Made by a program: the position numbers and the translations under genes
The notes under the pieces: model-generated
The model's input: the letters and a program-made list of their open reading frames with translations, nothing else
What the model was told of the DNA's origin: nothing
Databases searched by the model: none
In this document: piece after piece, positions 10,742-49,263 of the stretch
Position numbering within the stretch: position 1 is the first letter of the stretch
Layout of the letters: the number at the start of each line of letters is the position of its first letter
DNA from: Bacteroides faecis MAJ27
Lineage (GTDB): Bacteria > Bacteroidota > Bacteroidia > Bacteroidales > Bacteroidaceae
DNA: 64,000 nt
Assembly: GCF_900106755.1 (NCBI RefSeq)
Contig: NZ_FNNN01000030.1
Coordinates: 1-64,000, forward strand
Direction of reading: 5' to 3'

Positions 10742-11344
10742 CTATTTATATTGAATCATCCGGCTGATATACTTGCCGATGATATCAAACTCAATGTTCA
10801 CTACGCTACCGATCTCGAACGTATGAAAGTTAGTATGCTCATAAGTATAAGGAATAATAGCTACCTGAAAAGTATCATCCGTCGGATTACATACCGTCAA
10901 GCTGACACCATTTACAGTGACTGAACCCTTATCCACTGTGATATAGCCACGTTTCGCCATTTCCTTATCAAATGCATATTTGAATGTAAAATACCAGCTT
11001 CCGTCCGCATCCTTTATTTCCACACAAGTAGCGGTCTGGTCCACATGCCCCTGTACGATATGTCCGTCCAGACGGCCATTCATCATCATGCTGCGCTCTA
11101 CATTCACCTTATCGCCCACTTTCAGCAAACCAAGATTCGAACGGTCCAGCGTTTCTTTCATGGCAGTTACCGTATACGTATCATCGGTCAAGTTCACTAC
11201 CGTCAGGCATACTCCATTGTGAGAAATACTCTGATCAATCTTCAGCTCATTTACAAACGAACACTTAAATGTAAAGTGTATATTCTCCTGGTCTTTCACC
11301 AGTGCTACCAAGGTAGCATACTCTTCTACGATTCCAGAAAACAT
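10742..11344 (-). CDS. ribE: Riboflavin synthase, alpha subunit
   Basis: 200 residues made of two tandem lumazine-binding domains. Each has the typical start and core: MFSGIVEE then SISHNGVCLTV in the first, and GHIVQGHVDQ then GSVTVNGVSLTVC in the second. It makes riboflavin and a pyrimidinedione from two 6,7-dimethyl-8-ribityllumazine molecules. Length matches the family. I see no FMN riboswitch upstream. Confidence 0.95.
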   Translation of the reverse strand: MFSGIVEEYATLVALVKDQENIHFTFKCSFVNELKIDQSISHNGVCLTVVNLTDDTYTVTAMKETLDRSNLGLLKVGDKVNVERSMMMNGRLDGHIVQGHVDQTATCVEIKDADGSWYFTFKYAFDKEMAKRGYITVDKGSVTVNGVSLTVCNPTDDTFQVAIIPYTYEHTNFHTFEIGSVVNIEFDIIGKYISRMIQYK

Positions 11345-11751
11345 AATGTTAATTATTAATGTTCTACAATAAAAGACTGACTAAAAAGGGAAATAAGAGA
11401 GCTTCTAAACCTTTTAGCCAACTATACTAATATATTAGCTCTTTCATCAACAGCTGCGCTAATATAATAGCACAAAGATACGAATAAGGAAGGAAGTTGG
11501 AAAACTTTCTGTTTTTTTTCATATATTGCAAAGGTTAACTTGTGAATAAATTCCGAACTTTCTAATCAACACTCTGAATAATATTGATAGCCTGATTTGT
11601 TCCCATCCGAAGAAAGCTTCGAAATCACTAAAATGTAGGAAATGATACGATATATGATCCATGAAATCGACAGAAAAGCAATAGACGCAAAGAAGAATCC
11701 CCTCTCTCAAACACCGTATAACGCAACTTCCTGGCCTTCAGTATAGAGCAA
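11345..11751. other. Non-coding gap before the first integrative element
   Basis: About 400 bp between ribE and the left attachment repeat. A 63-codon frame at 11519-11710 has no recognisable domain or ribosome-binding site, so I do not call it. Before insertion of the element, the bases near 11751 would have been the T-tract side of the phoU terminator. Confidence 0.5.
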
Positions 11752-11771
11752 AAAAAATGGGGCTTTTCACA
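11752..11771 (+). repeat. attL: left 20-bp direct repeat of the tyrosine-integrase element
   Basis: The 20-bp sequence aaaaaatggggcttttcaca is identical at 21469-21488. The right copy is the 5' half (plus strand) of a hairpin that looks like the terminator of the phoU/pst operon, so this repeat marks the duplicated attachment core. Confidence 0.85.
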
Positions 11772-11810
11772 CTATATTGAGAATCAACAAATTAAACACA
11801 TTTTAACTTT

Positions 11811-11831
11811 TGGTTCTAAAAATGGTACTTA
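11811..11831 (+). repeat. Left arm-type direct repeat
   Basis: A 21-bp sequence beginning TGGTTCTAAAAATGGTACTT is identical at 21346-21366, in the same orientation, about 40 bp inside the left att repeat. A third partial copy of its core (TGGTACTTA) is at 21371-21379. Such repeats near both ends are typical arm sites for tyrosine integrases; binding is inferred. Confidence 0.7.
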
Positions 11832-11961
11832 TACTGCAAAGATACGGAAAAAACAGTATACCCCAATATTCTTTACACAATTTAAGTACAATAATTTTTC
11901 AAGCCTCATCCTAAACAAAATTATCAATCTCATTCATTTATTGAAAAATGTGACATATTGC

Positions 11962-12927
11962 TTAGCACCCTATATTATTATTTCCTGTTTGCATATATTG
12001 TTGTATCCATTTTCCAACTGTTTTATCAGATATAAACCCTATCTCTTTGGCTATTTTTCTGAAACTATAACCTTGATTGTACAAAGCGTATACTAAGTTT
12101 TTCATTTCAGTTTTATCTCGCTGTTTATTTTTAATGTCTAATAAATCAGATTCTGTTGCATAACCGCACTCAACGAAGCAAAGGAAGTTATTTACTTTTT
12201 CTCTTCTACATAATAATACATTATCTTCATGGTAAACAAATTCTCCTTCTCTAACTTTAATCTGCTTGATGTACACAATATCTCTGTCATGGGTAGATTT
12301 ACCCATTGCGAAACAACTATCTATGAAATTCATTATCTTTTTGGAACCAGCTAAGTCATCCTTAGCGATTGGTTTATTTACAGCGCGTTTAGGAGTGTGA
12401 GCGATAATTAGAAAACTCAATCCATATTGCATTTTTAAACCTCTCAATTTTTTTATAAATGTCATGGCATATTGACCGTTTTCTATGTTTTTGCATAGGT
12501 ATGTCATATTATCTAAAATAAAAATTTTCACTCCTTCTTTAGCTTTAATTTCAACTAATCTGAAAAAACGTTCCTCTACCTCTTCTTCTGAACATATCTG
12601 TTCTATTCTTAAGTCTGGATGAATTAGTTTATCAGAAAAAAGGTACATTTCACCAGTTTTTTCATTAGAATATCTCTTGTAGAATTGCTTAATAGATAGT
12701 TCGTAATCTAAATAAACAACATTTTTTCCATTACCAGCAATGTGCTCTCCTATTTGCATGGCAAGTATTGATTTGCCCACATTCGATTCTGCGAACAAAA
12801 CGCAAATTTCATTTTCATACCAAAGTTCTTTATATAATGATTGAGTGTCTTCCATGCTTGCCCCAATACGCATGACGTCATTAGCCGTCATATTCCAAAA
12901 TGCTATTTCATTTATCTTTTTATCCAT
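11962..12927 (-). CDS. RecA/RepA-like AAA ATPase with C-terminal helix-turn-helix
   Basis: 321 residues. Walker A is AESNVGKS (about residue 46-53) and Walker B is VKIFILDNMTYL. Further on, IIAHTPKR gives a sensor-like segment. This is the AAA_25/RepA-type fold used by plasmid and phage replication helicases and Sak4-like proteins. The C-terminus has a resolvase-type helix-turn-helix (GYSFRKIAKEIGFISDKTVGK). It probably loads or drives replication or maintenance of the element. About 820 bp of non-coding DNA with small repeats lies upstream and may contain its site of action. Confidence 0.75.
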   Translation of the reverse strand: MDKKINEIAFWNMTANDVMRIGASMEDTQSLYKELWYENEICVLFAESNVGKSILAMQIGEHIAGNGKNVVYLDYELSIKQFYKRYSNEKTGEMYLFSDKLIHPDLRIEQICSEEEVEERFFRLVEIKAKEGVKIFILDNMTYLCKNIENGQYAMTFIKKLRGLKMQYGLSFLIIAHTPKRAVNKPIAKDDLAGSKKIMNFIDSCFAMGKSTHDRDIVYIKQIKVREGEFVYHEDNVLLCRREKVNNFLCFVECGYATESDLLDIKNKQRDKTEMKNLVYALYNQGYSFRKIAKEIGFISDKTVGKWIQQYMQTGNNNIGC

Positions 12928-13751
12928 TATTTTTAATTAAAATATTGTTTAATACTATGAGGATGTAATTCACAATATCAATAACTAAATTATCGACATT
13001 TTTCTACGTCATAAGGCACCCTCCACACATTATGAACACATTTTCTCAAAAAATACGAAACTATTGTTGTATATCACCAATATCCTAAATGTTTCGTACC
13101 AGATAATAGTTTTTAGGATGAACTATCTCGTATCACAAGAATAAATTGTGCACATTTTTTTCTTGTTTTATTTGCAAATTTCACGATTGAACGGAAAGTT
13201 TCCTAAAAAACAGTACTAAAGGAAGTTAATTATTATACTTTAATTATTGAATATCAGAGTTTTTTTACGATATTTGCATCATAATAAGTTCCTGTAAAAA
13301 GGAAGAGTATTGTCGCCTTTGGATATTAAAATTTATAGTTAATTTTTTTTAAATAGACAATATTAAATCTTGGTAATCAATTCTATAACATAGAAATGAA
13401 AAAGTCTCCATTATATTGGAGACTTTTTTGTATAAAAGTGCGAACTATGCGAACTGCGCGAACTGTTTTAAAGTTCGCACCTTGCATATTTACTGCCACT
13501 TCTCCTTTTAAAAAAGGAAAATATCATAAACGGACTATTACTTTAATATTATCCAACCTAGAATGATATTCAAAAACTTAGTAAAAGAAATAAAAGTGAA
13601 CATTGTTTTATGGTTATTTTACGTATTTAAACGTAAACCACTGAAAAACAAAACATTATATATATTTCCGATATTCACTTCCTAGATTTGTGAATATTAG
13701 AAAAGAAAATGCGAACTACATTAGCTATAGTTCGCACTTTTTACAGGACTG
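12928..13751. other. Long non-coding region with iteron-like repeats and hairpins
   Basis: No gene is visible. It contains a perfect hairpin with a T run (AAAAGTCTCCA with its complement, 13401-13428), then three 9-bp direct repeats TGCGAACTA, TGCGAACTG, CGCGAACTG (13439-13465) followed by an inverted AGTTCGCA (13472-13479). A second hairpin near 13710-13742 uses the same GCGAACTA/TAGTTCGC arms. The combination of iterons and hairpins next to a RepA-like ATPase suggests a replication origin or operator; this is inference. Confidence 0.45.
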
Positions 13752-14360
13752 TTATTCATAATATTGTATTTCACGTATAGATACAACTTGTTCTGTTCTT
13801 TCGTAGTAATCTTGATTATAAGTACGTTTTGTCCAATTCCCGTATTTGTCGTATTCTTGATATTTATACAAGATATTTTTATCTTTATCAGCATATTCTG
13901 GCTTGCTTATAAGTGAAAGCAATAAGCTGTCGTACTGTTTTTTTTCATCTATAGAAATTGTTTTATCATATTTTTTATCATATTTTTCTTGTGTGCTATT
14001 AAATGCTATTGTATAATAAATTTTTAGGCTATCCCCAACTTCTTCATAAATATAATCTACTGTTTTTGTACTATTAACGTCCACTTCTTTTATACATAAA
14101 CCGTTTTTATAATATTCTATAGATTCTCCTTCTTCTCCCCAATTTCGCCTTTCTGTAAGATTCCCTTTATCATCGAAATAATAAGCTGTACTGTATCCGT
14201 ACATCATATTTCCCTCTATATCAGTGTAACTTACTTCGTCTTTTATACTTCTAATTTTTTGTTTTGGAGACAGGTTGTTATCATCACTATTCTTGGTTCC
14301 TCTTTGGTTACATGAAAATAAAAGTAACGATACAAAAAATAACAAATAAAAATTCTTCAT
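13752..14360 (-). CDS. Lipoprotein of unknown function (element cargo)
   Basis: 202 residues with a lipoprotein signal (LLLFSC, Cys17). The mature part contains toxin-repeat-like strands such as YDKYGNWTKRTY and DDKGNLTERRN, the 'D-x-x-G-N' pattern seen in MORN/YD-like repeat proteins of Bacteroidetes. No catalytic motif. It is the last of three co-directional cargo genes. The product is probably attached to the membrane, facing the periplasm or surface. Confidence 0.6.
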   Translation of the reverse strand: MKNFYLLFFVSLLLFSCNQRGTKNSDDNNLSPKQKIRSIKDEVSYTDIEGNMMYGYSTAYYFDDKGNLTERRNWGEEGESIEYYKNGLCIKEVDVNSTKTVDYIYEEVGDSLKIYYTIAFNSTQEKYDKKYDKTISIDEKKQYDSLLLSLISKPEYADKDKNILYKYQEYDKYGNWTKRTYNQDYYERTEQVVSIREIQYYE

Positions 14361-14376
14361 ATTATATTGTTTTAAA

Positions 14377-15645
14377 TTATAATTTGCTTGCCATTATGTT
14401 TTTCCCTAGAAAAGAGATATTTAAATTTCCATTCTTTATCCAGATAAGTATATTATTAGACCCACAATTACGGTCTGCTTCCCATTGTGGCATTCCATTT
14501 ATTAACTGTATAAAATGCAATCTAATGGATGCATTTTTTAGGCATGTGTAAGTACTGGTTTTAACATCTTGTTCTACATTATTAAAATTATATATATCTA
14601 TATATTTTGCCATTTCACTATTTGCAGATTGAAACATTGGTCCTGAAATAAATTGGTACATGGCATTACCACGAATTGTTATACGCTGTTCAGCAATGTC
14701 AATAATCCCATTCTCTACATATCCATCAATTGTACTAATACGATATCTTCCTTGAAGTTCGGATAAATATGAATTTTCAATTCTTTTAAAAATTGTTGAA
14801 ACATCATTTATCTGATAGCAACTAATCGCTGGACACCCTTCAAATGAATTATTAGAAAGAAATAGGTCGTTTTTTATATCGACCTGTTTTAAAGAGGTAC
14901 ATTGGGCAAAGGCATTTTCCTCAATTTTATCTACATTTTTTAAATTAATATTTTGTAGAGAACTACATAGATAAAAACACTCTTGACCAATTCTTTTTAC
15001 TTGTGATGGAAGTGATACAGATTCTAAATTAAAGCAGCCACTAAAGGCTTTTGAACGCAGTTCTGTTACCTTATCTGGTATTACGATAGATTTTAAATTA
15101 ACGCATTCTTTAAATGTTTCTTCAGAAATGACCTCTAATTTGTCAGGTAATTCTATTTCTGTGAAACAACATTGTTCAAAAGCACCTGGTCTTATAATTG
15201 AGAGATTATTGTTTAATAAGATTGGATTAAGTTTTTGGCAACCAGAAAAACATTTCATCCCTATCTCTGTGACAGACGCAGGGAGTATCACTTTTTCCAA
15301 AAGGTTACATCCAACAAAAGTAAAATCACCTGTATTAACTAATCCTTTAGGTAGTATTACTTCTTTTAAGCTGTCACAATGAGCAAGAGCGGAATCTGGC
15401 AAATATTGTAAATCGCAATTAGAAATGTCTAAAAAGTGTAGGTGATTAGCATTTCTAATTATATGAAAATCTTCTGCATTGAGTGTGCCAGATAAGGTTA
15501 ATTCTTTAACTGTTCTAATATTTCTTCCAATAAGTTTTTGTAAGGTTCCCTCGTCCGTTATTTGTATATTACAAGTTGTTTTTTCACAAGAAACAACACA
15601 AGACATCAGCACTGTTATCAATATTGGTATTCCGTACTTTTTCAT
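14377..15645 (-). CDS. BspA-type leucine-rich-repeat lipoprotein
   Basis: 422 residues with a lipoprotein signal (SCVVSC, Cys20). Residues about 60-270 are consecutive LRR_5 (BspA-type) repeats. The pattern 'F..C..L..I.LP..V..I....F..C' recurs at roughly 23-residue intervals, e.g. TFKECVNLKSIVIPDKV then AFSGCFNLESVSLPSQV. BspA proteins mediate binding to host or bacterial surfaces. The C-terminal 140 residues have no recognisable domain. It lies between two other cargo genes with gaps of about 15 bp, indicating an operon. Confidence 0.8.
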   Translation of the reverse strand: MKKYGIPILITVLMSCVVSCEKTTCNIQITDEGTLQKLIGRNIRTVKELTLSGTLNAEDFHIIRNANHLHFLDISNCDLQYLPDSALAHCDSLKEVILPKGLVNTGDFTFVGCNLLEKVILPASVTEIGMKCFSGCQKLNPILLNNNLSIIRPGAFEQCCFTEIELPDKLEVISEETFKECVNLKSIVIPDKVTELRSKAFSGCFNLESVSLPSQVKRIGQECFYLCSSLQNINLKNVDKIEENAFAQCTSLKQVDIKNDLFLSNNSFEGCPAISCYQINDVSTIFKRIENSYLSELQGRYRISTIDGYVENGIIDIAEQRITIRGNAMYQFISGPMFQSANSEMAKYIDIYNFNNVEQDVKTSTYTCLKNASIRLHFIQLINGMPQWEADRNCGSNNILIWIKNGNLNISFLGKNIMASKL

Positions 15646-15660
15646 AATATTTATTGTATC

Positions 15661-16323
15661 TTACTTTCTAATAAAATTTCTACCATTATCTATCGATTTT
15701 ATATTTCCACCATCAAGCCTTACTTTAGGTGCTTTCTGCATATTATCCCCATCATTTACAAAGTATATATAGCTATCGTTAATTATACAGTCTGTATATG
15801 AGTTTTGAATAACAGGATTTCCATTACTATCATAAACTGTCATATCTGCTGAATAATCACTATTGATATCTATTCTAACAAGTGGTTGGATACCTTCATA
15901 TAACACCCAAGTTCCTACAACCCTATTTAATTGTTTGGACATATTCTTTAATTCACTCTCCTTATCATAGTTCTCTTGATTCAAAAAATAATCTTGATAT
16001 TCTGAAATAGAAGTGTGCTTTTCATCTTCATCTTTTGTAGTAAAATAACCTATCCCTCCGATTATAAGACATATAATTAGTATTGTTTTCCAATGAATCC
16101 TTTTTATGAATTGAAAAGTGGCATTAAGAAAACTAAAATTACAGGGATATCGATTTTGCACATAATAAAATAAAAAACCGATTAAAACTATAGGAATAAG
16201 TACTTCCATGAAAGAAATACAATTCCTATAGAGCAATTCATGCTTAGAATAAGGTGCTGGTACTTGAGCGCAAAGCCATATAGGTACAATTGATAATAGC
16301 AAAACGCTAGTTAAACGCTTCAT
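15661..16323 (-). CDS. Membrane protein of unknown function (element cargo)
   Basis: 220 residues from the methionine of MKRLTSVLL. A signal-like N-terminus is followed by two membrane segments (about 39-56 and 79-95) and a soluble C-terminal half with a lipocalin-like or DUF-type strand pattern (GTWVLYEGIQPLVRIDINSDYSADMTVYDSNG). First gene of the cargo operon. Its start lies 50 bp from the structured element at 16373. Confidence 0.55.
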   Translation of the reverse strand: MKRLTSVLLLSIVPIWLCAQVPAPYSKHELLYRNCISFMEVLIPIVLIGFLFYYVQNRYPCNFSFLNATFQFIKRIHWKTILIICLIIGGIGYFTTKDEDEKHTSISEYQDYFLNQENYDKESELKNMSKQLNRVVGTWVLYEGIQPLVRIDINSDYSADMTVYDSNGNPVIQNSYTDCIINDSYIYFVNDGDNMQKAPKVRLDGGNIKSIDNGRNFIRK

Positions 16324-16372
16324 AGTATACAAAATATCTCAATCGGCTCTAAAAGAGGGGTTATAATAAAAG

Positions 16373-16632
16373 AAGTGTGAGCCTACTTAGCTTATCTTGC
16401 CAAAGGCTCTCGACTGCCGCACAGAGATAAGAAAAATAGCCCACACTTTGCGTTATATGTAAGGTTGTACATATACACCACAAAGGGAACGTTATTTCTA
16501 TTCCGCTGTGCTTTGAAGGGTCGAGATTCTTGGCACGAAATACGCTAAACGCTTCCTATAATTTATGTCTACTACAATTGTAGTATTGCAAAAATAGAAA
16601 TTATTTAGCAAATAATATTCATGTGGGCTATT
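16373..16632. ncRNA. Structured element A (pseudoknot-like; RNA or folded DNA site)
   Basis: Helix 1: AAGTGTG (16373) with CACACTT (16442), continued by CTTATCT (16391) with AGATAAG (16425). Its 27-base loop pairs again with a downstream segment: TGCCAA (16398) with TTGGCA (16530), TCTCGAC (16408) with GTCGAGA (16520), GCACAG (16419) with CTGTGC (16506). Unpaired AGGC, TGCC and TTC separate these helices. A hairpin (TATATGTA/TACATATA) lies between. An 11-bp strand AATAGCCCACA (16435-16445) recurs inverted at 16622-16632, near the recombinase stop. Element B at 46912 has the same plan with compensatory changes. Which strand acts, and whether as RNA or DNA, is unknown. Confidence 0.65.
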
Positions 16633-16658
16633 ATTTTTTACAAAGATACCGTTTTTAA

Positions 16659-17255
16659 TTAAAAACTTAGCAAATTATATGCTTCTAAAAGCTCTTCAGA
16701 CCGAAGCCCCAAATAACGTCTTGTAGTTTGTACATCCGCATGATTAAAAAGTTCTGCCAATTTAATTAATGCAAATTCACTATTCTCTTTAGAAGCCTCA
16801 ACTATTTTTCTTCCAAAAGTTTTTCTCATAGAATGCGTGCTGAAATGCTCAACTTTTAAATTATATTTCACTTTAATCTCCTTGAAAAGATTATTTATCC
16901 GCTGGACACTATATACAGTTCTTTTGCGACTTATAAAACATTTCTCATTTTTATCTTTAATATTAAGTTTTTTGTAACAATCTAAAATATGCTTTTGAAA
17001 TCCATAATTAACTTTTATTTCTCTTCTTTTTTTTGTTTTCTTTTCAATTATAATAAAAGAATCACTATCCAATAACATAGACCATGTCAAAGTGAGTAAA
17101 TCTGAAATGCGTAGACCGAAAAAAGAGCCACAACCAATCAGTAAACTCATCCGATATTCTTGGTTCCTATATAATTTATGAATCAATGCAAGCATTGTGT
17201 CCCACTCAACGTAATCACTTGTCACATAACTATTTTTTAAACTCATAACATTCAT
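16659..17255 (-). CDS. Small tyrosine recombinase
   Basis: 198 residues, only the catalytic domain plus a short N-terminal part. Catalytic residues are visible: Arg49 (FFGLRISDLLTLTW), the HxxR box (THSMRKTFGRK), the second His in FNHADVQTTRRYLG, and Tyr in the same stretch. It lacks a full core-binding domain, like Bacteroides DNA invertases and short integrases. It is not the integrase next to the att repeat. Its 3' end adjoins structured element A, suggesting that it acts there or on the inverted repeats there. Confidence 0.85.
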   Translation of the reverse strand: MNVMSLKNSYVTSDYVEWDTMLALIHKLYRNQEYRMSLLIGCGSFFGLRISDLLTLTWSMLLDSDSFIIIEKKTKKRREIKVNYGFQKHILDCYKKLNIKDKNEKCFISRKRTVYSVQRINNLFKEIKVKYNLKVEHFSTHSMRKTFGRKIVEASKENSEFALIKLAELFNHADVQTTRRYLGLRSEELLEAYNLLSF

Positions 17256-17357
17256 TTTTTAGTGAATTTCATAGTTTGTGAACTAACTATGAAACTTTAT
17301 TTTGTTAAACTATTGATAATCAATCTATATTCAATAATTACAGAAGTGAATATTGCT

Positions 17358-17657
17358 TTATGCAGCCATTTTTACTTCTAATGGTAAAATAGCGTTCATC
17401 AATTCTACCCTTATAGATTCATACTTAGCTTTCTTTTCTTTATCATCCGTCCAAGCCTTGTGAGCGGTAACTTCCCATAACTCACGTAAGGTAGAAGCGA
17501 TAGTTACATCAGAGATTTCAGCGATAAACTCCACAAATACTCTCATGTGCCCATACGCTTTATCACGTGCATTATCAGAATACTCTGCCCATGCCCACCA
17601 CCAGTCATGTTCGTTAATCATTTGGAGTGCTTTCTCTACTTTATCCATAGTTGTCAT
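17358..17657 (-). CDS. Small conserved-looking protein, unknown function
   Basis: 99 residues (97 from the second methionine). Rich in Trp and charged residues, predicted all-helical (EHDWWWAWAEYSDNARDKAYGHMRVFVEF). No signal peptide or known motif. It has its own upstream region of about 150 bp and lies upstream of the small recombinase on the same strand. Confidence 0.55.
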   Translation of the reverse strand: MTTMDKVEKALQMINEHDWWWAWAEYSDNARDKAYGHMRVFVEFIAEISDVTIASTLRELWEVTAHKAWTDDKEKKAKYESIRVELMNAILPLEVKMAA

Positions 17658-17815
17658 ATCTCTAATATTTAAGTATTAATCTTGTTTCTTATTACCCTGC
17701 AAAGATATGACATATATTTAATTAGTGCAATATTTCACAGTTAATCAAAGTTAAATTTATGACATTTATTTATTATATGTAATATATTTATTATTTTTGT
17801 AGCAAAGTTGAGATT

Positions 17816-18091
17816 ATGAGTGCAGAAAAGAAGGAAAGAACAGTGATTCATTTGGAACTAACTAGTGGTGAACACCATTATTTTGGCTCAATAGCTAATA
17901 TCTATGAATATTTTAGTGCAGAAATAATAGGAATTAGCTATGGTGCATTGAGAAATTATAAATTATCTAGCGAGAAACCATATCAAAATACGAAATGTAT
18001 AATCAGGAAAGGTGTTTTGCTTTCCAAAGAAGGAAATAGAGGGCGAAAAAAAGAAAAAAGTGATGAAACGAACCGTACTAACACAGCATAA
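17816..18091 (+). CDS. Small protein, possible DNA-binding accessory factor
   Basis: 91 residues. The core (HHYFGSIANIYEYFSAEIIGISYGALRNYKL..KPYQNTKCIIRKG) matches a small-protein type I have seen repeatedly on Bacteroides mobile elements, but I cannot name a function. The basic tail (GRKKEKSDE) would fit nucleic-acid binding. It is transcribed opposite to the flanking genes. Confidence 0.55.
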   Translation: MSAEKKERTVIHLELTSGEHHYFGSIANIYEYFSAEIIGISYGALRNYKLSSEKPYQNTKCIIRKGVLLSKEGNRGRKKEKSDETNRTNTA

Positions 18092-18131
18092 ATAGCTGAT
18101 TTTCAATACATACCCCATAATGAATTACATA

Positions 18132-18503
18132 CTAGACGTGTTCCAAATAACATTTAACAATCTCATAAACAATCGGTTTTAGATAATCTTCAAGTACTTT
18201 TCTATCTTCACTAGTCATTATTGTAACAAAATTACGAGCTTGTTGAACATCTCTAAATGAGATGGTATTTGTATTTAGAGCCTGATTCAATAAGTCTTTA
18301 CGAGCTATTATATCAGTTTTTCCAAGTTCCTCTTTTATAGCCTGTTTGATTGCCTTCCAACGTTTTTTTTGACTGTCGCTAATTTTCTTCTTGGTGGCAC
18401 TAGTATGACATTTATTATACATTGGATTCAAACTACCTTCCTTTTTCTGTGATTGTTTCTTTTTCATATCTACATATGATTGAGCTAAATATTTATCTTC
18501 CAT
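18132..18503 (-). CDS. Small basic protein with NUMOD3-like motif
   Basis: About 123 residues from the methionine of MEDKYLAQ, preceded by AAAAAGGAAG. A TTG start 18 codons upstream is possible. The segment GSLNPMYNKCHTSATKKKISDSQKKRW closely resembles NUMOD3, the DNA-binding repeat of GIY-YIG and HNH homing endonucleases, but no nuclease domain is attached. The rest is helical. It may be a remnant of a homing endonuclease or a free-standing DNA-binding protein. Neighbouring genes on both sides are on the opposite strand. Confidence 0.55.
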   Translation of the reverse strand: MEDKYLAQSYVDMKKKQSQKKEGSLNPMYNKCHTSATKKKISDSQKKRWKAIKQAIKEELGKTDIIARKDLLNQALNTNTISFRDVQQARNFVTIMTSEDRKVLEDYLKPIVYEIVKCYLEHV

Positions 18504-18641
18504 CTTCCTTTTTACATTTAGTATATATTTATTAAAGAAAAAATTAAGTAACTTCAACTACTTTCCTTTCATAAATAGTAATTAATTAACAAAAAGTTGG
18601 TTTTCAATAAAAAAATATATACGTTTGAGAAAAAAGAAATT

Positions 18642-19463
18642 ATGAAGGAAAAGGTAGATTATCAATTTATAGCGGTTCCATATAAAGCCGCTTATGCGTG
18701 CGATGCATTATGTTTAGCAGTATTAATAATACTCATACAAAAAGAAAATTATTGGAAGGACAAAGGACGTTTAGATTCAAATGGCTTTTTTTATACAGCT
18801 AATGCAGAAATTGAAAGCCGAATCGGTTACAAAAGGAATGTAGTGAACGAAACGATTGAAGGATTATTTAGAGGCAACATGATAGATATAATTCCATCTT
18901 CATCCAAAAAAGAAAGCAATAAATATAGAATAAATTGGAATACTATATTAGCCTATGACAAACTGTCTCTTGAAGAACTGAATCATCCCGCAATGAGAAT
19001 ACATAAGGTTACACGTAAAGAAACGCTTACCTATACCTATTCCAAATTGGATGCAAAAAATGAAACAAATTGCACTACTACTTTAAATAAATCAGATATA
19101 ATAAATACTATAGATAAAGATATTAATAATAATGATAGTGCAAATTGCACTACTACACCTAATTGTTATTTGCCTGAATTTACAAGAAAAGAAACTTGTG
19201 ACAACAGTGAAAATGAGATTTTAGATATATTTAGATGTATTGTTTTTGAAGAATGCTATGAACACAAAACATATTTCACAGATAAGGAACATGCAGTTTT
19301 AAAAGATATACTTTCTCAATTCAGGCAAGAAAGACCAAATATTGAAGACATCTGTTTTGAGCTCAAATCTTGGAGTAATGAACTTACACGAGAAGAAGTA
19401 AAGAAAGCGATATTAAACATTGTACCTAAATTTAAAGAAGCATATCAAGTTGTAGCTCAATAA
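18642..19463 (+). CDS. Winged-helix protein, replication-initiator-like
   Basis: 273 residues from the ATG at 18642, after a purine-rich AAAAAAGAAAT. The N-terminal 110 residues look like a winged-helix module of Bacteroides Rep-type proteins (DALCLAVLIILIQKENYW..., then NAEIESRIGYKRNVVNETIEGLFRGNMIDI). A variable Asn/Thr-rich linker follows (residues 150-195), then a helical C-terminal domain. It ends about 130 bp from the convergently transcribed integrase. Replication or regulation is inferred. Confidence 0.55.
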   Translation: MKEKVDYQFIAVPYKAAYACDALCLAVLIILIQKENYWKDKGRLDSNGFFYTANAEIESRIGYKRNVVNETIEGLFRGNMIDIIPSSSKKESNKYRINWNTILAYDKLSLEELNHPAMRIHKVTRKETLTYTYSKLDAKNETNCTTTLNKSDIINTIDKDINNNDSANCTTTPNCYLPEFTRKETCDNSENEILDIFRCIVFEECYEHKTYFTDKEHAVLKDILSQFRQERPNIEDICFELKSWSNELTREEVKKAILNIVPKFKEAYQVVAQ

Positions 19464-19540
19464 AAAATATCCCAAAGATGCAAAGCCAACAGTATGAACG
19501 AAATGGACTTACTTCAATTCATACATCCAATAACAGGGTA

Positions 19541-19571
19541 CATAAGGGGGGGGATACCCCTCCCCCTCATA
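19541..19571. terminator. G/C-rich hairpin between convergent genes
   Basis: A run of eight G followed by ATA and CCCC..CCCCC forms a short, very stable hairpin in an otherwise AT-rich element. It sits between the end of the winged-helix gene and the end of the integrase gene, so it can act as a bidirectional terminator. It lacks a long T tract. Confidence 0.4.
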
Positions 19572-19591
19572 TTACAATCCAAGCATACTAA

Positions 19592-21295
19592 TCAAATAGT
19601 ATCCACATCTAACACTTCATTCAAATCTTTATTTGTTATCATCAAAAATGTATCGTGCAGCATTTTAACTTTTTGTGATAATTCCTTTGGAGCATTATAT
19701 AAACGCTTTACATCTTCTAATTTATATCCTGCTGCAAGCATCTGTCCTTGAAGTTGTCCCACCATTCTCCATAATTTAGAAATATCAACGCAATCGACAA
19801 ATTTATATGCTGGAACATTGAAAAACGTTAGCACAGCTTTAGCTTCTCTAATAGATTGTTCAATAGTTAGTTCTTTAGTTTCATTTTCTACTTTGTCTTT
19901 CGCAAACTTTCTAATTTTATCTTTTACTACTTCTTTTCTAATATGATTATAATTTTTTTCTATAATTTCTTTTGATTGTCCTGTAACAAGTTGTATCATT
20001 TCCGCCTTCCATCCTTCTTCAAGCCTATTGGTAATAAAAGTATGACGTGCAGTATGGCTGACTATAATGTCACATATTCTATCACTACGTTCCTCTAACG
20101 TATCGCCTGTCTGAACTTGATAATTATGCGTTCTCGTCAATCCCGCTTTTTCTGCAATTGTTTTAATTTCTCTTGTTATATAATTTTCGATTGTAATATC
20201 TCTAACTTCTTCTTTATTTGAATGCTTCTGCTTATTTTTAAATAAAGTAAACTCTGTGTCTTTATATTTATCTATTAATGATTTAATTCTCTCATTCAAA
20301 TGTATGCTAACTGCCTTGCTGCCTTTCTCTGTCTTCGCACAATTAATAAAATCATCTTCAATCGTATAATTTTGATTTCTAACAATATCTATCAATTTTG
20401 AAACTCGCTGTCCCATTTCTGCTTGAAGAATGAACAAATCTCTTATTTCTATTTCTCTTTTGTTCAATTTATCGTCACACTGCATTAATAATTGAAGTTC
20501 ACCATCAGTTAACGCAAAACGTGATGTTGCATCATCATCGAGAATTTTCTTCGTTCTTAGCTTATAATCCTCAATCCCTTCATTAATATTTTTAGGAAAC
20601 AAGTCAAATTCACGTGCCTTTCTAATGACAGACATAATGTGCCCAATCTTCGTTTTTATAGTTTTCCATTTTTTATCTTTTAGTGTCATTTCATATTTTG
20701 AGAGATTGACCTTGCTAACGCTAGATAACCTATCACCACCATTTTTTTTCAAAAATTCACAGAACTCTTTAATAGTACTAGCCTTTTGAGTCGTACCTTG
20801 ACTAGCCTTATAATGCTCGACAATAACTTTGGTGAAAATTAAACTGGCTGGAGTATCGCCATCCACCTCTTTAGTTGAAGGTTTTCTCTTTATCGTTTTT
20901 TCCTTTTGAACAGTCACAGCTTCTTCTATCTTATTAGTCATAGTATATTTTGCTTTTGTACTGAATAAACTTTGTTTTATATACTCTAGTGTAATGTTGT
21001 CAATTGACTTATTAGACAAAGATAACTTCAATTCCTCAAATTTCTCCCTAATTTCAATGATTTTTTTGTTGGCGATACTATTATTCAAATTTTCTTGTTT
21101 AGTCAAATAAGGCTCTACTTTAGCCTTCTGATTCCTGTAATCCCAATTAAGTTTATAGACTTTCATATTGGTATTCACCTTAAATTGTTGACCCTTGAAA
21201 TTTACAACTGCATAAATTATTGCCATTACAGACTTGTCCTTGACACTTCTTAAATTGAAGTTCAGGCTTAATTTTACAAAAAGCTGTTTTTCCAT
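19592..21295 (-). CDS. int: Tyrosine integrase of the 9.7-kb element
   Basis: 567 residues, long for the family. The order is an arm-binding/SAM-like N-terminal half (Arm-DNA-bind-like start KLSLNFNLRSVKDKSVMAIIYA), a core-binding segment (residues about 150-235), and the catalytic domain with Arg in MGQRVSKLIDI, HxxR in SHTARHTFITN, and Tyr in IIEKNYNHI. About 120 extra residues follow the tyrosine (from REAKAVLTFF), an unusual helical extension. The gene lies beside attR, with arm-type repeats between its start and the att core, the usual position for the element's own integrase. Confidence 0.9.
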   Translation of the reverse strand: MEKQLFVKLSLNFNLRSVKDKSVMAIIYAVVNFKGQQFKVNTNMKVYKLNWDYRNQKAKVEPYLTKQENLNNSIANKKIIEIREKFEELKLSLSNKSIDNITLEYIKQSLFSTKAKYTMTNKIEEAVTVQKEKTIKRKPSTKEVDGDTPASLIFTKVIVEHYKASQGTTQKASTIKEFCEFLKKNGGDRLSSVSKVNLSKYEMTLKDKKWKTIKTKIGHIMSVIRKAREFDLFPKNINEGIEDYKLRTKKILDDDATSRFALTDGELQLLMQCDDKLNKREIEIRDLFILQAEMGQRVSKLIDIVRNQNYTIEDDFINCAKTEKGSKAVSIHLNERIKSLIDKYKDTEFTLFKNKQKHSNKEEVRDITIENYITREIKTIAEKAGLTRTHNYQVQTGDTLEERSDRICDIIVSHTARHTFITNRLEEGWKAEMIQLVTGQSKEIIEKNYNHIRKEVVKDKIRKFAKDKVENETKELTIEQSIREAKAVLTFFNVPAYKFVDCVDISKLWRMVGQLQGQMLAAGYKLEDVKRLYNAPKELSQKVKMLHDTFLMITNKDLNEVLDVDTI

Positions 21296-21345
21296 CTTTT
21301 TTATCCCGACTGATTATCAAGCACTTACATTTTCACAACTCTAAA

Positions 21346-21379
21346 TGGTTCTAAAAATGGTACTTAAAATTGGTACTTA
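21346..21379 (+). repeat. Right arm-type repeats
   Basis: 21346-21366 is identical to 11811-11831. TGGTACTTA recurs at 21371-21379. These lie between the integrase start and attR, overlapping its promoter region, so integrase binding here could also repress its own gene (inference). Confidence 0.65.
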
Positions 21380-21468
21380 AAGTTATTTACGTGTGTACCT
21401 TTTTCAAAGCCAAAATTTTATACACCACTGATAATCAATATTTTAAAGCGCCAAAAATGTAAGGATAT

Positions 21469-21500
21469 AAAAAATGGGGCTTTTCACAAAGCTCCATTTT
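21469..21500. repeat. attR within the phoU/pst terminator hairpin
   Basis: Bases 21469-21488 are the 20-bp att repeat. Together with the following AAGCTCCATTTTT they make a 13-bp stem (one G-T pair) with A/T tracts on both sides. Read on the minus strand it is a standard terminator for phoU: the stem, then six T supplied by the repeat. The element therefore integrates into a terminator and restores it. Confidence 0.8.
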
Positions 21501-21745
21501 TCAGTTTTCAATAGGTATTAGTTTTTTTTTAAGGTAAAAAGATTGTTTTCAGGATAACGGTGCAAATATAGTCGCTTTTACTGTTATTCTCCAAATTATA
21601 AAACATGTCATATAACATCTTTTTGAAATATCTTTGGATTTATTATCATTTGCAGTAAAAACGCCCGTAACTTGTCCGTTACAGGTGACAAATATAGGAC
21701 TATTTTCTAAGTAGCCCTAATTTTTGTTTAAAAACATGCAAAAAA

Positions 21746-22435
21746 TTACGATTTTGGATAGTTTTCGTCTACTTTTCCGCTATGTTTTAAGACTTTTGCA
21801 TCAATAAAGAATACTATTTCCTCTGCAATGTTGGTAATGTGGTCACCTGAACGTTCCAATTTCCGGAACACGCCAACCAAGTCTACACAAGTATGAGCCG
21901 TTTCCGGATGTTCACGGATATAATCTGCCAGAATACCCGTTGCTTCCGCATTAATGTCATCCAACAGGTTGTCTTTACCAAATACCGCAGTCGCCATCTC
22001 AATATTTTCTTCGTTCAAGGCACGTTTCGCCAGTTCCAGCATCGATAAAACCTCTGCCTGCATCTCTCCCAGGCGCAGACGGGCCAGCAAATCGGCATCC
22101 AGCACCGGTTCCTTGCAGCGGATAACGAAACGGGCTATACCTTCTGCAAAGTCTCCCAGACGTTCCAGATTCGTATTGATTTTCAGCATTGCCAGTACAA
22201 AACGGAGGTCAATCGCTACCGGATTGTACAATGCGATGATATCCTCTATATCACTGTCTATCTTCAGTTCAAAGGCATTCACCCGACGTTCGCGCACCAT
22301 CACTTGCTGTGCCAGTTCTTTATCAAGCGTCATCACGGCCTCCCCCGCACGGTCAAGCTGATTGTACACCAATGTCCACATTTCATCCACTTCTTTCTTC
22401 AATAGAATAAGCTCCGATTCTATAAACTTTACCAT
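21746..22435 (-). CDS. phoU: Phosphate signalling protein PhoU
   Basis: 229 residues forming the two three-helix PhoU repeats. The metal/phosphate-loop signatures are seen as IALYNPVAIDLRFVLAMLKINTNLERLGDFAE (first) and VGVFRKLERSGDHITNIAEE (second). It connects the Pst transporter to the phosphate-responsive histidine kinase and damps uptake. Last gene of the leftward pstC-pstA-pstB-phoU operon, 57 bp after pstB. Confidence 0.95.
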   Translation of the reverse strand: MVKFIESELILLKKEVDEMWTLVYNQLDRAGEAVMTLDKELAQQVMVRERRVNAFELKIDSDIEDIIALYNPVAIDLRFVLAMLKINTNLERLGDFAEGIARFVIRCKEPVLDADLLARLRLGEMQAEVLSMLELAKRALNEENIEMATAVFGKDNLLDDINAEATGILADYIREHPETAHTCVDLVGVFRKLERSGDHITNIAEEIVFFIDAKVLKHSGKVDENYPKS

Positions 22436-40043: not shown

Positions 40044-40072
40044 CTATTTTCACTTACACATAATACTACCAT
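40039..40072 (+). repeat. attL of the serine-integrase element
   Basis: Core TTGTC at 40039-40043, then a right-hand half-site ending CACATAATACTACCAT (to 40072). The mirror half-site ATGGTAGTATTATGTG is at 54462-54477. Placed head to head they form a nearly symmetric attP centred on the core, as expected for large serine integrases. Confidence 0.8.
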
Positions 40073-40177
40073 ATCGCGTTTTAATATTAATTTACAATAA
40101 AATAGCTAATTACCATTTCTGATAATCAGCTTTATTATAATAATACCGCTTATAAAAACATAGTAGATTCTATCTCA

Positions 40178-40831: not shown

Positions 40832-40850
40832 AGTATAATTGGAATAAAAA

Positions 40851-40870
40851 AGGCTAGCCGAAGCTAGCCT
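40851..40870 (-). terminator. Terminator of the 97-residue gene
   Basis: AGGCTAGC, loop CGAA, GCTAGCCT: a perfect 8-bp stem. On the minus strand six T follow. Confidence 0.85.
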
Positions 40871-40882
40871 AAATTTAATGCA

Positions 40883-42312: not shown

Positions 42313-42456
42313 GACTTGAAGCTTACTATTAGTATGATGTATTTTTGTGTTCAAATGTACAAAAAACAAATTAATTAATCAGATTTTATTATATATATTT
42401 TCTAACAAGCCTTGTTGTAAAAGATGTGTTGTAATTATTGATAGAACAATAAAAAA

Positions 42457-42487
42457 AACAGCAAATGAATTTCTTCAAATGCTGTTT
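42457..42487 (-). terminator. Terminator of the 78-residue membrane-protein gene
   Basis: AACAGCA and TGCTGTT enclose inner TGAA/TTCA pairs; on the minus strand eight T follow. Its inner 22 bases recur at 41514. Confidence 0.8.
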
Positions 42488-42497
42488 TACTCAATAT

Positions 42498-46256: not shown

Positions 46257-46742
46257 TTATAAATCTAGAGCTTTACTTTTTATAGTAATTATGTATGGCT
46301 TTCCACCTTTGTTTACATCAATCAACTGCCTTTTGGTATTTCCTGCTAAAAAAGTTTCGGTCAATACTTGTACATTTCCTTCTGTATCAACATATTCCAT
46401 GACAACCTTATCTATAGTAAAATCCGAATAATTCTTCAAAACCCAATATGTGGGTGGTTTAACTCCCCATTGTGCTAACAATGCAGAGAAAACGGAAATA
46501 TCAAAAAAAGTAGCTTGAAAAACATTCTCTTTCTTGTTGTTCAATCTTACTGCGCTTCCAACAGGCTGAGGCTCTTCACGTTCAATCACAAGATATTTTG
46601 CTATATTATTACGCACTTCTTCTTTTGTTGTCGTTTGTTTTTGTTCTTCCTTATCATCTACTCTTTGATTACTTTGGATGTTATTACAGGAAAATAGTAT
46701 AAACGAAAATATAAAGGATAATCCAATAAATAGTTTTTTCAT
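46257..46742 (-). CDS. Lipoprotein of unknown function (first cargo gene)
   Basis: 161 residues, lipoprotein signal ILFSC with Cys19. The C-terminal part (YWVLKNYSDFTIDKVVMEYVDTEGNVQVLTETFLAGNTKRQLIDVNKGGKPY) looks like an immunoglobulin-like or FxLYD strand pattern. First gene of the cargo operon, with structured element B starting about 170 bp upstream. Confidence 0.6.
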   Translation of the reverse strand: MKKLFIGLSFIFSFILFSCNNIQSNQRVDDKEEQKQTTTKEEVRNNIAKYLVIEREEPQPVGSAVRLNNKKENVFQATFFDISVFSALLAQWGVKPPTYWVLKNYSDFTIDKVVMEYVDTEGNVQVLTETFLAGNTKRQLIDVNKGGKPYIITIKSKALDL

Positions 46743-46911
46743 ATTGCTTTTTATTTTTTGATTAATAATTTAATTTGTAGTATAAGCTGCTCAAAAAATG
46801 AGTTGGCTACTTAAAAGATAGTAGCAAAAGTTGTTTCTTAATGTCTGATTCGTAGTTATATATCGTTTTATCTACCCTGTTCCCTTTGGATAGTATTACA
46901 CAATGAGAAAA

Positions 46912-47209
46912 GCGTGGGAACTATTGAATATTATCATATTGAGGCTCTGGACTGCCCAAGGTTGAATAATAAACAATAGCCCACGCCAAACGATATATAG
47001 ACTATCTTAACAAGATAGGTATATAACATTGACGTGAGCGTTCTTGCCTATTATCTTCAACCTTCGAAATTGTCCAGATTCCAATATGAGATAATATCTT
47101 AAACGCTCTTCGTTAACTAATATGTCCTTTCAGCCCCAACACATTAGGTATCTGAAATTGCCACAAAGTTACGAAAAGCGTTTGTAATAGCAAGAACTAT
47201 TGTTTATTA
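46912..47209. ncRNA. Structured element B (pseudoknot-like; RNA or folded DNA site)
   Basis: Helix 1: GCGTGGG (46912) with CCCACGC (46980), extended by CTATTG (46921) with CAATAG (46974). Its loop pairs with downstream DNA: TCATATTG (46934) with CAATATGA (47082), TCTGGAC (46946) with GTCCAGA (47072), AAGGTTG (46958) with CAACCTT (47058). Unpaired AGGC, TGCCC and TTC sit exactly as in element A. A hairpin (CTATCTT/AAGATAG, 47002-47018) and a closing helix GAGCGTT/AACGCTC (47036/47102) complete it. The 13-base strand 46967-46979 recurs inverted at 47197-47209, near the recombinase. Not a family I can name. Confidence 0.65.
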
Positions 47210-47318: not shown

Positions 47319-47954
47319 TTATGGCTTTATAAACTGATTTTTTATCCGTTGAACGGTGGAAATACCAATACTTTGTAGCTTAGCTATATTTCTGATTGAA
47401 TAGCCTTTTCTTAGTAAAGCAATGACTTCCTTATATTCTTCTTTTTTCTTATCATCCGTTTTGGTTGAACCTGTCTTTCTGCCAAGCTTGCCACCTTTAG
47501 CAATATAATTCGCTCTACCACTATTCAAACGATATTGGATATTGCTTCTTTCGATATTTGCCATTTCTGCAAGTACTGTCACCATGATAGAAGCTATTGG
47601 ATTAACTTCCCCATTTGGTTGCAAAGTATATAAGCCCAAGTTCTGTATGTAAACCGATACTTTCGATTCATGCAATATATCCAAAGAGCGAAGAACCTGT
47701 AATGTACTTCTTCCTAGTCTTGACAATTCAGACAAAAGTAGAATATCCACAGATTCACGTTTACAGTATTCCAAACATTCTCCTAAAATCTGTCTTTCCT
47801 CTATTTTCTTTGCACCTGAAATATGCTCCTGGAATATATTCACTATTTCTATATCCTGTGAAATAGCATATTTCTTTAAATCCTCTATTTGTCTGCTCGT
47901 GTCCTGTCTGTCATTACTTGACGAAACACGAGCGTATATTACGGCTGTTTTCAT
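47319..47954 (-). CDS. Small serine recombinase (resolvase/invertase)
   Basis: 211 residues. Resolvase N-domain with catalytic Ser11 in YARVSSSNDRQ, and the conserved arginines in LLLSELSRLGRSTLQVL. After the long E helix (MANIERSNIQYRLNSGRANYIAKGG) comes a Hin-type helix-turn-helix (GYSIRNIAKLQSIGISTVQRIK). This is the invertase/resolvase size class, not the large integrase that moves the element. Its 3' end adjoins structured element B, mirroring the tyrosine recombinase beside element A. Confidence 0.9.
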   Translation of the reverse strand: MKTAVIYARVSSSNDRQDTSRQIEDLKKYAISQDIEIVNIFQEHISGAKKIEERQILGECLEYCKRESVDILLLSELSRLGRSTLQVLRSLDILHESKVSVYIQNLGLYTLQPNGEVNPIASIMVTVLAEMANIERSNIQYRLNSGRANYIAKGGKLGRKTGSTKTDDKKKEEYKEVIALLRKGYSIRNIAKLQSIGISTVQRIKNQFIKP

Positions 47955-48237: not shown

Positions 48238-49263
48238 TCAATCAATAAACCACTTATATTTAGTGTCTCCATGCAAAGCGGCATTTATTCCCGTTGCTAT
48301 TTCGGTAGCATTTACCGCTCTATCCAAGAATGAATCTATATAACTGCTCTTATTTGCTCCTGTCAATAGATTATACAATTTCCACATACTAATATCATTC
48401 CCCAAGCTCCCAAAGTTCTTATCATTGATATATGCTTTTGCAACTGTATTTATTTGCGAATCAGTAATAAGCATTTTAGGAATATCTTTCTGATAACCCT
48501 GTGGTAATGATTGATAAAGTCTCATTCTCCCAAGTAATTGGCAAAATTGATGTTCTGTGAGATATGAGTTACCAAGTGTTTGCATTAAGTGTATGTGTTT
48601 GGCTGTGTCGTATTTATTAAACATCTCTAATACAGTTTGATATAAATCCCTTGTATTAGTAACTTCCAAACAGCTAAGAAAACCGTCTGTTGATACACAC
48701 AAGTTTGTGCAAACTTTACAAATAAAGCCAATAAATACTTTAAACCTTTCTGCTCCCTTCTTGCTATACAAATTGGTATGATTATAAGCACGAACACCAC
48801 CAATAGTAAGAATTAGCTTATTTCCGTTCACTGTTTCGAAAATCGTAGGAATCTGAATAATAAAAGCACATCTTTCGTAGTAGATAGTCTTATCACTTTC
48901 AAGAAGTTGATTTGCAGGTTTGTGTATTGCTTCGGGTATTCTCCCCTTGATAATGTGACTTACACGAATATCGGGCTTATCAATGCTTTCACCACTGAAA
49001 AATGCATTTGCAGCGTCATAAACAGTATCAATAAATGCAGGGTGAGGAATTGTAAGCTCATTATCTTTAGCAAATACGGGTGTAATACAATCTTCTTTCA
49101 AATGTTGCATTGTTACCTCTAGTGTATTAGCTTCCAAGAAATGAGGATTCTCTTTTTTAACTTTTGGTTGTTCTTCGATTATTACCGCTTCTTCTGCATA
49201 CTCACCAAAGTTACTTTCTCTTCTTACCTGTGGCACATTGCCAATAATTTGTAGATTTCTCAT
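48238..49263 (-). CDS. DUF3871-family protein
   Basis: 341 residues, soluble. Matches the Bacteroidetes mobile-element family DUF3871, recognisable by the LEANTLEVTMQHLKEDCITPVFAKDNELTIPH segment and the central GGVRAYNHTNLYSKKGAERFKVFIGF. The family is found on phages and integrative elements; its function is unknown. It stands alone, with about 690 bp of non-coding DNA upstream. Confidence 0.8.
   Translation of the reverse strand: MRNLQIIGNVPQVRRESNFGEYAEEAVIIEEQPKVKKENPHFLEANTLEVTMQHLKEDCITPVFAKDNELTIPHPAFIDTVYDAANAFFSGESIDKPDIRVSHIIKGRIPEAIHKPANQLLESDKTIYYERCAFIIQIPTIFETVNGNKLILTIGGVRAYNHTNLYSKKGAERFKVFIGFICKVCTNLCVSTDGFLSCLEVTNTRDLYQTVLEMFNKYDTAKHIHLMQTLGNSYLTEHQFCQLLGRMRLYQSLPQGYQKDIPKMLITDSQINTVAKAYINDKNFGSLGNDISMWKLYNLLTGANKSSYIDSFLDRAVNATEIATGINAALHGDTKYKWFID

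Follow-up and report, generated by a model that had tools for sequence, protein, structure and literature searches.

A widespread and apparently uncatalogued family of probable leader RNAs in Bacteroidota with two alternative, covarying folds

The 64,000-nucleotide stretch of Bacteroides faecis MAJ27 DNA that was analysed here (the window) carries two elements which are members of a widespread and apparently uncatalogued Bacteroidota RNA family. Four main strands, numbered 1 (E), 2 (B), 3 (C) and 4 (D), are predicted to adopt two mutually exclusive folds, and the pairings of both are shown by comparison of copies to covary. The element looks like a directional gene leader RNA, and on balance we favour the view that each copy forms the 5′ leader of the gene that follows and attenuates transcription through its alternative folds, probably serving as a genetic on/off switch.

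A first-pass annotation of the window had proposed that the segments 16373-16632 and 46912-47209 share a pseudoknot-like fold and that each lies between a small recombinase gene and a block of cargo genes. Both elements are real, but the right-hand ends at 16632 and 47209 fall outside the family core since they are part of the upstream segment ahead of the promoter motif, and an additional conserved hairpin was found beyond the annotated range on the downstream side of the minus strand (Table 1). The functional strand of both elements is the minus strand; element 2 folds as RNA much better than shuffled sequences on this strand (z=-9.6; plus strand z=-4.2). Read on the plus strand, element 1 runs AGGCTCTCGACTGCC ... 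GGGTCGAGATTC and element 2 runs AGGCTCTGGACTGCC ... TTGTCCAGATTC. The middle helix that had been reported, TCTCGAC/GTCGAGA in element 1 and TCTGGAC/GTCCAGA in element 2, is present on direct reading together with its AGGC, TGCC and TTC flanks. Along the minus strand the gene order is recombinase, core and gene in both cases, with a tyrosine recombinase at element 1 and a serine recombinase at element 2; these neighbours are borne out by Pfam and are typical of the close subgroup of element 2. Among named records, the nearest matches are those of B. finegoldii plasmids (91.5%).

Table 1. Coordinates of the two elements and their neighbours in the window, all on the minus strand, with the evidence for each. 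Strand roles and promoter motifs are predictions.
Feature	Position	Strand	Evidence
Element 2, conserved leader RNA core	46908..47110	-	cmsearch with R2 (no window sequences), 235.2 bits
Element 2, putative Bacteroides-type -7 promoter motif TAACTTTG	47164..47171	-	sequence; TAnnTTTG in 95/126 copies against 7.7% of shuffles
Element 2, strand 1 (E)	47101..47110	-	E:B covariation, z=-8.0
Element 2, hairpin H1 GGAATCTGGACAATTTC, apex of left hairpin; loop carries 5′ strand of middle helix	47066..47082	-	own versus foreign flanks, z=-4.5
Element 2, strand 2 (B)	47030..47042	-	B:C z=-13.3, E:B z=-8.0
Element 2, strand 3 (C)	46974..46988	-	B:C z=-13.3, C:D z=-17.0
Element 2, hairpin H2 GGGCAGTCCAGAGCCT, apex of right hairpin; loop carries 3′ strand of middle helix	46942..46957	-	own versus foreign flanks, z=-8.5
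Element 2, strand 4 (D), 3′ side of terminator-like stem	46912..46926	-	C:D z=-17.0; isolated C..D pairs C:D in 124/126 copies
Element 2, T-rich tract behind strand 4	46902..46912	-	mean over the family, 6.4 T per 8 nt (2.1 further downstream)
Element 2, strand 5 / F hairpin CTATCCAAAGGGAACAGGGTAG; loop GGGAAC complementary to GTTCCC of D	46872..46893	-	D:F z=-14.9; negative control D:F2 z=-0.4
Element 2, segment A, complementary to part of strand C; ahead of promoter motif, outside family core	47190..47209	-	sequence
Serine recombinase upstream of element 2	47319..47954	-	Pfam Resolvase, E=4.2e-32
DUF3871 protein, same island as element 2	48238..49263	-	Pfam, E=1.9e-155
First gene behind element 2, 161 aa, putatively lipoprotein-like	46257..46742	-	ORF; start codon 166 nt past element; no Pfam match
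Element 1, conserved leader RNA core	16371..16556	-	R2, 63.5 bits, E=1.9e-15 (16371-16554); R1, 86.6 bits (16371-16556)
Element 1, putative Bacteroides-type -7 motif TATTTTTG	16589..16596	-	sequence
Element 1, strand 1 (E)	16544..16556	-	sequence; fold of isolated E..B
Element 1, hairpin H1	16515..16529	-	family test (H1 z=-4.5)
Element 1, strand 2 (B)	16481..16495	-	sequence; isolated-half fold
Element 1, strand 3 (C)	16435..16450	-	sequence; isolated-half fold
Element 1, hairpin H2	16405..16420	-	family test (H2 z=-8.5)
Element 1, strand 4 (D)	16373..16388	-	isolated C..D fold, -30.0 kcal/mol
Element 1, T-rich tract behind strand 4	16361..16375	-	sequence
Element 1, strand 5 / F hairpin; loop GAGCC complementary to GGCTC of D	16338..16357	-	sequence; family test D:F
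Tyrosine recombinase upstream of element 1	16659..17255	-	Pfam Phage_integrase, E=4.7e-19
First gene behind element 1, 220 aa, putatively membrane-type	15661..16323	-	start codon 48 nt past element; no Pfam match

The likeness of the two elements goes beyond chance. An alignment of 38 copies (A1), which includes both window copies, gives a consensus fold of 52 pairs, 26 of which have at least one sequence changed on both sides. Because A1 contains the window copies, a separate model, R2, was made from 33 relatives, neither window element among them; alignment A6 omits L033, L041 and L093 as well as both window copies. Across the 64-kb window R2 recovers element 2 at 235.2 bits and element 1 at 63.5 bits (E=1.9e-15), the sole extra match up to E=10 being a reverse-strand echo of element 2 (E=0.14). 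The corresponding scores of a sequence-only model are 171.3 and 37.2 bits, and since the R2 scores lie above these, structure contributes to the score.

Relatives are numerous. Searches with blastn found matches to element 2 in 66 of the 149 genomes of the genus, its own included, and to element 1 in 19 of the 149. The search model R1 gave 15 matches in this genome at E<=0.1, or 13 copies after removal of two reverse-strand echoes. Under stricter filters R1 found the element in 63/198 genomes and 49/146 sampled genera of the order and in 30/392 genomes and 16/178 genera of the phylum, while at a sensitive setting 7 of 39 genomes of the class contained it. A pattern scan of named genomes returned at least 80 loci; among the 80 listed, R1 confirms 68 (E<=0.001), and the 12 unconfirmed are ten titled outside Bacteroidota (all of that kind), one Rikenellaceae and one Chitinophaga. 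Among the listed matches, R1 confirms copies in named Flavobacteria, in Sphingobacteria and in one Spirosoma; named species with a confirmed copy include Capnocytophaga canis, Gelidibacter pelagius, Paenimyroides aquimaris, Sphingobacterium lumbrici, Spirosoma fluviale and Parabacteroides goldsteinii. In fragmented genomes (such as G550, G688, G608 and G687) several copies stand no more than a few hundred bases from the start of a contig, as would be expected of repeats at which assemblies break.

Rfam 15 yields no match at either element at the gathering threshold, and with E up to 10 the matches there lie far below gathering scores; scans of the elements at 36 distinct further loci (E<=0.05 or E<=2) likewise gave no match. 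At gathering scores the only Rfam 15 matches in the whole window are BTnc060 and RNase P. Nothing in the open PMC literature was recognised as describing this RNA, although an earlier listing without a name is possible among the candidate RNAs of PMC8040213, which number thousands. For the B. thetaiotaomicron transcriptome PMC7366714 gives 13.5% of mRNAs with a 5′ UTR longer than 100 nt, about 2% of these having a predicted riboswitch. The earlier suggestion of a structured RNA family outside Rfam has thus held up: further homologues carry compensatory changes, the proposed helices are not broken and the elements match no Rfam 15 family at gathering scores.

In fold A the RNA is predicted to form one long hairpin, in which strand 2 pairs with strand 3 and the outer arms pair with each other while strands 1 and 4 are free. 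Fold T consists of adjacent hairpins, 1:2 with the apical hairpin H1 and 3:4 with the apical hairpin H2; the 3:4 stem is GC-rich and a conserved T-tract stands directly behind it. The loops of H1 and H2 are mutually complementary, so that the middle helix could exist in both folds, in fold T as a loop-loop contact. A fifth strand, complementary to strand 4, forms the loop of a small hairpin (F) located at most about 50 nt past the T-tract. The two window elements differ here by a compensatory change, the D:F pairing being GGCTC/GAGCC in element 1 and GTTCCC/GGGAAC in element 2.

For the long hairpin, 48 of the 52 pairs are changed on both sides among 80 copies (999 cells against 283 in shuffles) and 93.9% of cells are paired against 64.8% in shuffles, in an alignment that was itself fitted to this fold. 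The alternatives were compared in a chimera test on 126 copies with 25 permutations each, for which halves were split at the apical loop and quarters were swapped between copies. Own combinations were favoured over chimeric ones for x1+x2 (z=-15.1), y1+y2 (z=-27.2), x2+y1 (z=-32.8) and x1+y2 (z=-20.0), whereas the two combinations absent from both folds, x1+y1 and x2+y2, gave z=+1.5 and z=+1.1. Relatedness of the copies is an unlikely cause of this result because the controls should feel relatedness too. Duplex energies of own versus foreign strands in the same 126 copies agree, with z=-17.0 for C:D, -13.3 for B:C, -8.0 for E:B and -14.9 for D:F. Six of the eight strand controls fall between -0.8 and +0.7 (D:F2 -0.4, C:F 0.6, B:F 0.5, E:D 0.3, B:D 0.7, C:U -0.8), and two give a weak signal (E:F z=-2.4, D:U z=-2.2). 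A replication set of 64 copies gave z=-9.7 for C:D, -5.5 for D:F, -3.3 for B:C and -0.8 for E:B, with controls between -1.9 (C:F) and +1.2; E:B is weak and B:C partly so in this set, for which B and C were fixed by the search pattern itself. Taken jointly in the fitted alignment, C:D and E:B are paired in 85.6% of cells against 82.7% in shuffles, and 66 cells are changed on both sides against 30. The apical hairpins covary as well (H1 z=-4.5, H2 z=-8.5; controls 0.1 and 1.6), and the H1r:H2l test gave z=-1.6.

Isolated left halves (E..B) form E:B in 124 of 126 copies, compared with 76 of 126 when E is shuffled, and isolated right halves (C..D) form C:D in 124/126 as well; when the whole element is folded, B:C appears in 119/126. 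A pure pseudoknot reading of C:D and E:B was rejected and replaced by a two-state reading because the isolated halves fold as hairpins and the chimera test separates the four true pairings from the two false ones. The contacts initially described as pseudoknot-like are more readily accounted for by an RNA that alternates between two sets of pairings.

The family counts rest on the 126 distinct copies that remained of 151 matches (A2 and A3). The next open reading frame lies on the strand of the element in 118 of these, on the opposite strand in 7, and was not found in 1. Start-codon distances peak at 45-65 nt (47 of the 118 same-strand genes); they exceed 100 nt in 34/118, and in 11/118 the called start lies inside the element. 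In the independent replication set, from which one duplicate was left out, the next gene has the same strand in 60 cases and the opposite strand in 4, and in 4 of the 68 the downstream sequence, at under 300 nt, is too short to tell; 23 of the 60 starts fall at 45-65 nt. The motif TAnnTTTG, the Bacteroides -7 promoter consensus, occurs within 110 nt upstream of 95/126 copies, compared with 7.7% of mononucleotide shuffles, and in 38/67 of the replication set. Right behind the element the T content averages 6.4 of 8 nt, compared with 2.1 of 8 further on (126 copies).

The genes that follow are diverse. Pfam and PADLOC scans covered 105 of 116 downstream genes and found 134 Pfam families among these 105 proteins, the commonest being TonB plug, CarbopepD_reg_2 and Por_Secre_tail (6 each) and then BspA-type repeats (5). 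A simple heuristic classes 83/116 first genes and 49/77 second genes as exported, against 7/49 same-strand upstream genes; the first-gene figure covers 116 of the 118 same-strand downstream genes and counts the gene behind two L165 copies twice. Such calls remain heuristic, and the score of second genes comes close to that of first genes. A defence regulon was considered and rejected, PADLOC matches being few and ZorA models each matching at most 2/105 proteins. L209 is apparently a copy whose gene matches ZorA (MotA/ExbB-like) models. Of 65 within-genome copy pairs whose RNAs are at least 70% identical, 52 precede DNA without detected similarity and 13 precede similar DNA; cargo was compared by tblastx or else by blastn, such that 'unrelated' may mean only that nucleotide similarity is lacking. 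Similar leaders ahead of dissimilar DNA indicate that the leader is placed before unrelated genes, and it may be a promoter unit that serves whatever gene arrives.

In the attenuator mechanism that we propose, transcription would start at the TAnnTTTG motif just upstream. Fold T would act as an intrinsic terminator, leaving the gene off, while fold A, with strand 4 held by strand 5 in a 4:5 pairing, would let RNA polymerase pass. A signal shared by every copy in the cell, be it a small molecule, a protein or transcription speed, would decide between the folds, and one type of leader would precede unrelated accessory genes, often for exported proteins. Leader-peptide translation would not be the trigger: a search for a leader-peptide signature found an ORF of at least 8 codons in 0.74 of leaders compared with 0.93 in shuffles, and a translated leader peptide overlapping strand 1 is unsupported, leader ORFs being rarer than in shuffles. 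As no such signature was seen in the leaders, a ligand, a protein or the speed of transcription is the expected trigger. Fold A is more stable than fold T by a mean of 16.5 kcal/mol (minimum free energy, the loop-loop contact not counted), so that fold T would need to prevail while the RNA is being made, or to receive help. Unlike in textbook terminators, the loop within the 3:4 stem is long, being made up of H2 and its flanks, and a simple terminator scan with loops of 3-8 nt flags neither window element. A DNA cruciform would follow the same pairing rules, and 23/25 close relatives of element 2 stand behind a recombinase, both of which we count against the attenuator reading. The copies whose next frame is on the opposite strand or missing, and the start codons that lie far from the element or inside it, also weigh against it.

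The closest parallel in logic is with the trp and his attenuators of enterobacteria, which alternate between 1:2 together with 3:4 (a terminator with a T-tract) and 2:3. The family shares this strand logic and is likewise sited between a promoter motif and a gene; its 1:2 and 3:4 pairings exclude 2:3, and a U-tract follows 3:4, with a long enclosed loop. It differs in lacking the leader-peptide signature, in having unrelated genes downstream and in possessing a covarying apical hairpin in each half, complementary loops and a fifth strand. Riboswitches with a transcription-terminator platform offer a second parallel as large conserved leader RNAs with an alternative terminator-like fold ahead of genes, and a structured cis leader with an alternative expression platform describes the family as far as sequence comparison goes; however, the genes behind it share no pathway, Rfam 15 has no match at the elements and a ligand role is here a candidate one.

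More tentatively, the family may be a phylum-wide, unnamed class of regulatory RNA, a four-strand switch in which two hairpins with complementary loops can merge into one and which would bring numerous unrelated genes, horizontally variable and often for exported products, under the control of a single shared signal; it might be a new class of riboswitch responding to a general signalling molecule. Such a complex leader, present in 49/146 sampled genera of the order yet absent from Rfam 15, would represent a large and apparently undescribed regulatory RNA class of a dominant gut phylum. If one signal controls all copies, they would constitute a regulon of accessory genes that is invisible to gene annotation and that includes TonB-dependent receptors, T9SS-sorted proteins, BspA-like repeats, lipoproteins and a ZorA-like protein. 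The explicit two-fold model predicts which mutations would switch the gene on or off.

The leader could instead promote processive antitermination or enhance translation, in the manner of put, EAR or ops/RfaH, by acting on RNA polymerase or the ribosome, the T-tract then not being a regulated terminator. NusG-like antiterminators are used at leaders in Bacteroides, and such a role would suit a promoter-proximal site ahead of unrelated genes as well as the conserved downstream hairpin F, which covaries with D and lies near the start codon where the distance is short. On its own it leaves unexplained why both folds and the T-tract directly behind strand 4 are conserved, and we consider it unlikely. 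The put, EAR and ops/JUMPstart leaders and the UpxY loci of Bacteroides resemble the family in being leaders that precede variable genes of surface-related or mobile kinds, and differ in that alternative folds and a T-tract are conserved here; by structure they were compared through the Rfam scans. Hairpin F was also compared with DUF805 RNA (RF03081), likewise a cis element (Rfam type Cis-reg) but a separate family with a 68-nt model. In L154, DUF805 RNA occurs between the element and the start codon (1702-1767) and again before the next gene (2666-2734); behind a set of 20 scanned copies, the search gave only a sub-threshold DUF805b further downstream in L174. Its restriction to L154 led us to reject an identity of F with DUF805 RNA. 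By eye, a second F-like hairpin with a GGAAC/GGGAC-type loop is seen directly before the start codon of the first gene in L078, L080, L090 and their relatives, all long-leader copies.

A different view, and one already voiced in the first-pass annotation by analogy with integron att sites, is that the element is a folded DNA site, attC-like or cruciform, at which neighbouring recombinases capture or exchange cargo genes. For the family as a whole this fares poorly. A recombinase related to either of those in the window lies within 1.5 kb upstream of only 6 of 126 copies, 117 of which have at least 600 nt of upstream sequence, and the promoter motif, the T-tract and the peaked same-strand start distance are one-sided features that would not be expected of an att site. 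The close relatives of element 2 tell otherwise: among 25 distinct loci, the window included (the overlapping pairs L022/L075, L024/L077, L030/L082, L032/L083 and L029/L090 each counted once), a recombinase stands just upstream in 23, of which 13 are of the serine and 10 of the tyrosine type, L078 and L035 being the two with neither. The recombinase of these 23 loci nearly always follows DUF3871 and occupies the same place between DUF3871 and the leader. The order of recombinase, element and gene is thus a rule in one mobile subgroup, within which two unrelated recombinase types are interchangeable. That the same element should be common to recombinases of two unrelated chemistries itself speaks against a recombination site.

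The limits of homology bear on the same question. At 12 distinct loci homologous to the serine-recombinase locus, similarity to the element-2 locus ends at query positions 3746-3765 in 7 and 3557-3634 in 5, where the element ends at 3593 and the first gene starts at 3759. In the former 7 homology thus runs 153-172 nt past the fold, to near the first start codon of element 2, which tends to speak against exchange at the folded site; in the latter 5 it stops between 36 nt before and 41 nt after the element end. Of the 6 distinct serine-type loci aligned first, 4 share a lipocalin-like lipoprotein (so named in L092) as first gene, and element 2 and L072 carry others. The first gene has therefore been exchanged behind the leader at least there, as the first-pass annotation suspected, though for the most part away from the fold. 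Like integron attC sites, the window copies and 23/25 close relatives are imperfect palindromes next to a recombinase gene, and the four mutually complementary strands would also permit a DNA four-way junction; unlike attC, the family has a leader with a promoter motif and T-tract and mostly lacks a related recombinase. Capture of cargo at an attC-like site was accordingly not adopted as the main function of the family, on the leader features, the 6/126 recombinase rate and the homology ends, notwithstanding the strong recombinase link in the subgroup, and we regard the DNA-site explanation as very unlikely.

In both recombinase-linked window copies segment A, located ahead of the promoter motif, repeats a portion of strand C in inverted form, the portion differing between them (47190-47209 with 46967-46986; 16620-16632 with strand C of element 1). 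This complementarity is in keeping with a DNA site, and the repeat could be a recombinase site or the arm of an invertible promoter. In a search for inversion of the promoter between segment A and strand C, the motifs A, P, C and D appeared in one order and none inverted in 14 complete loci. A plasmid search with the tyrosine recombinase of the window (E<=1e-20) gave no match.

That the element is a free trans-acting small RNA of about 200-250 nt ending at the T-tract, with the gene behind read by leak-through only, would fit its own promoter motif, its terminator-like 3′ end and the several copies per genome, but is highly improbable given that the same-strand gene with its peaked start-codon distance and the D:F pairing with a segment past the T-tract tie it to the gene downstream.

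The surroundings of the elements in the window recall the rAID systems of Bacteroidales, for which PMC12247911 describes a recombinase followed by co-oriented short low-GC genes and mentions conserved intergenic motifs. Each window island shares the recombinase and the run of co-oriented short low-GC genes and differs from that description in having, by model search, one element per island and not one between every gene pair. A search of the window cargo regions for a motif repeated between array genes found nothing beyond short, incomplete repeats (16-25 nt, families D2 and D4) touching element 2, and no SUKH domain was found among the 20 window proteins scanned; an rAID identity was rejected since no repeated element lies between the genes. 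The window regions at about 11000-22000 and 40000-54000 contain about 28-36% GC, next to parts with 40-50%, and both hold a recombinase, an element and a co-oriented gene run, and 57000-64000 is likewise low, at about 28-30% GC. At the edge of the low-GC stretch with element 1, the Rfam match to the BTnc060 sRNA lies at 21469-21682 on the minus strand (246 bits).
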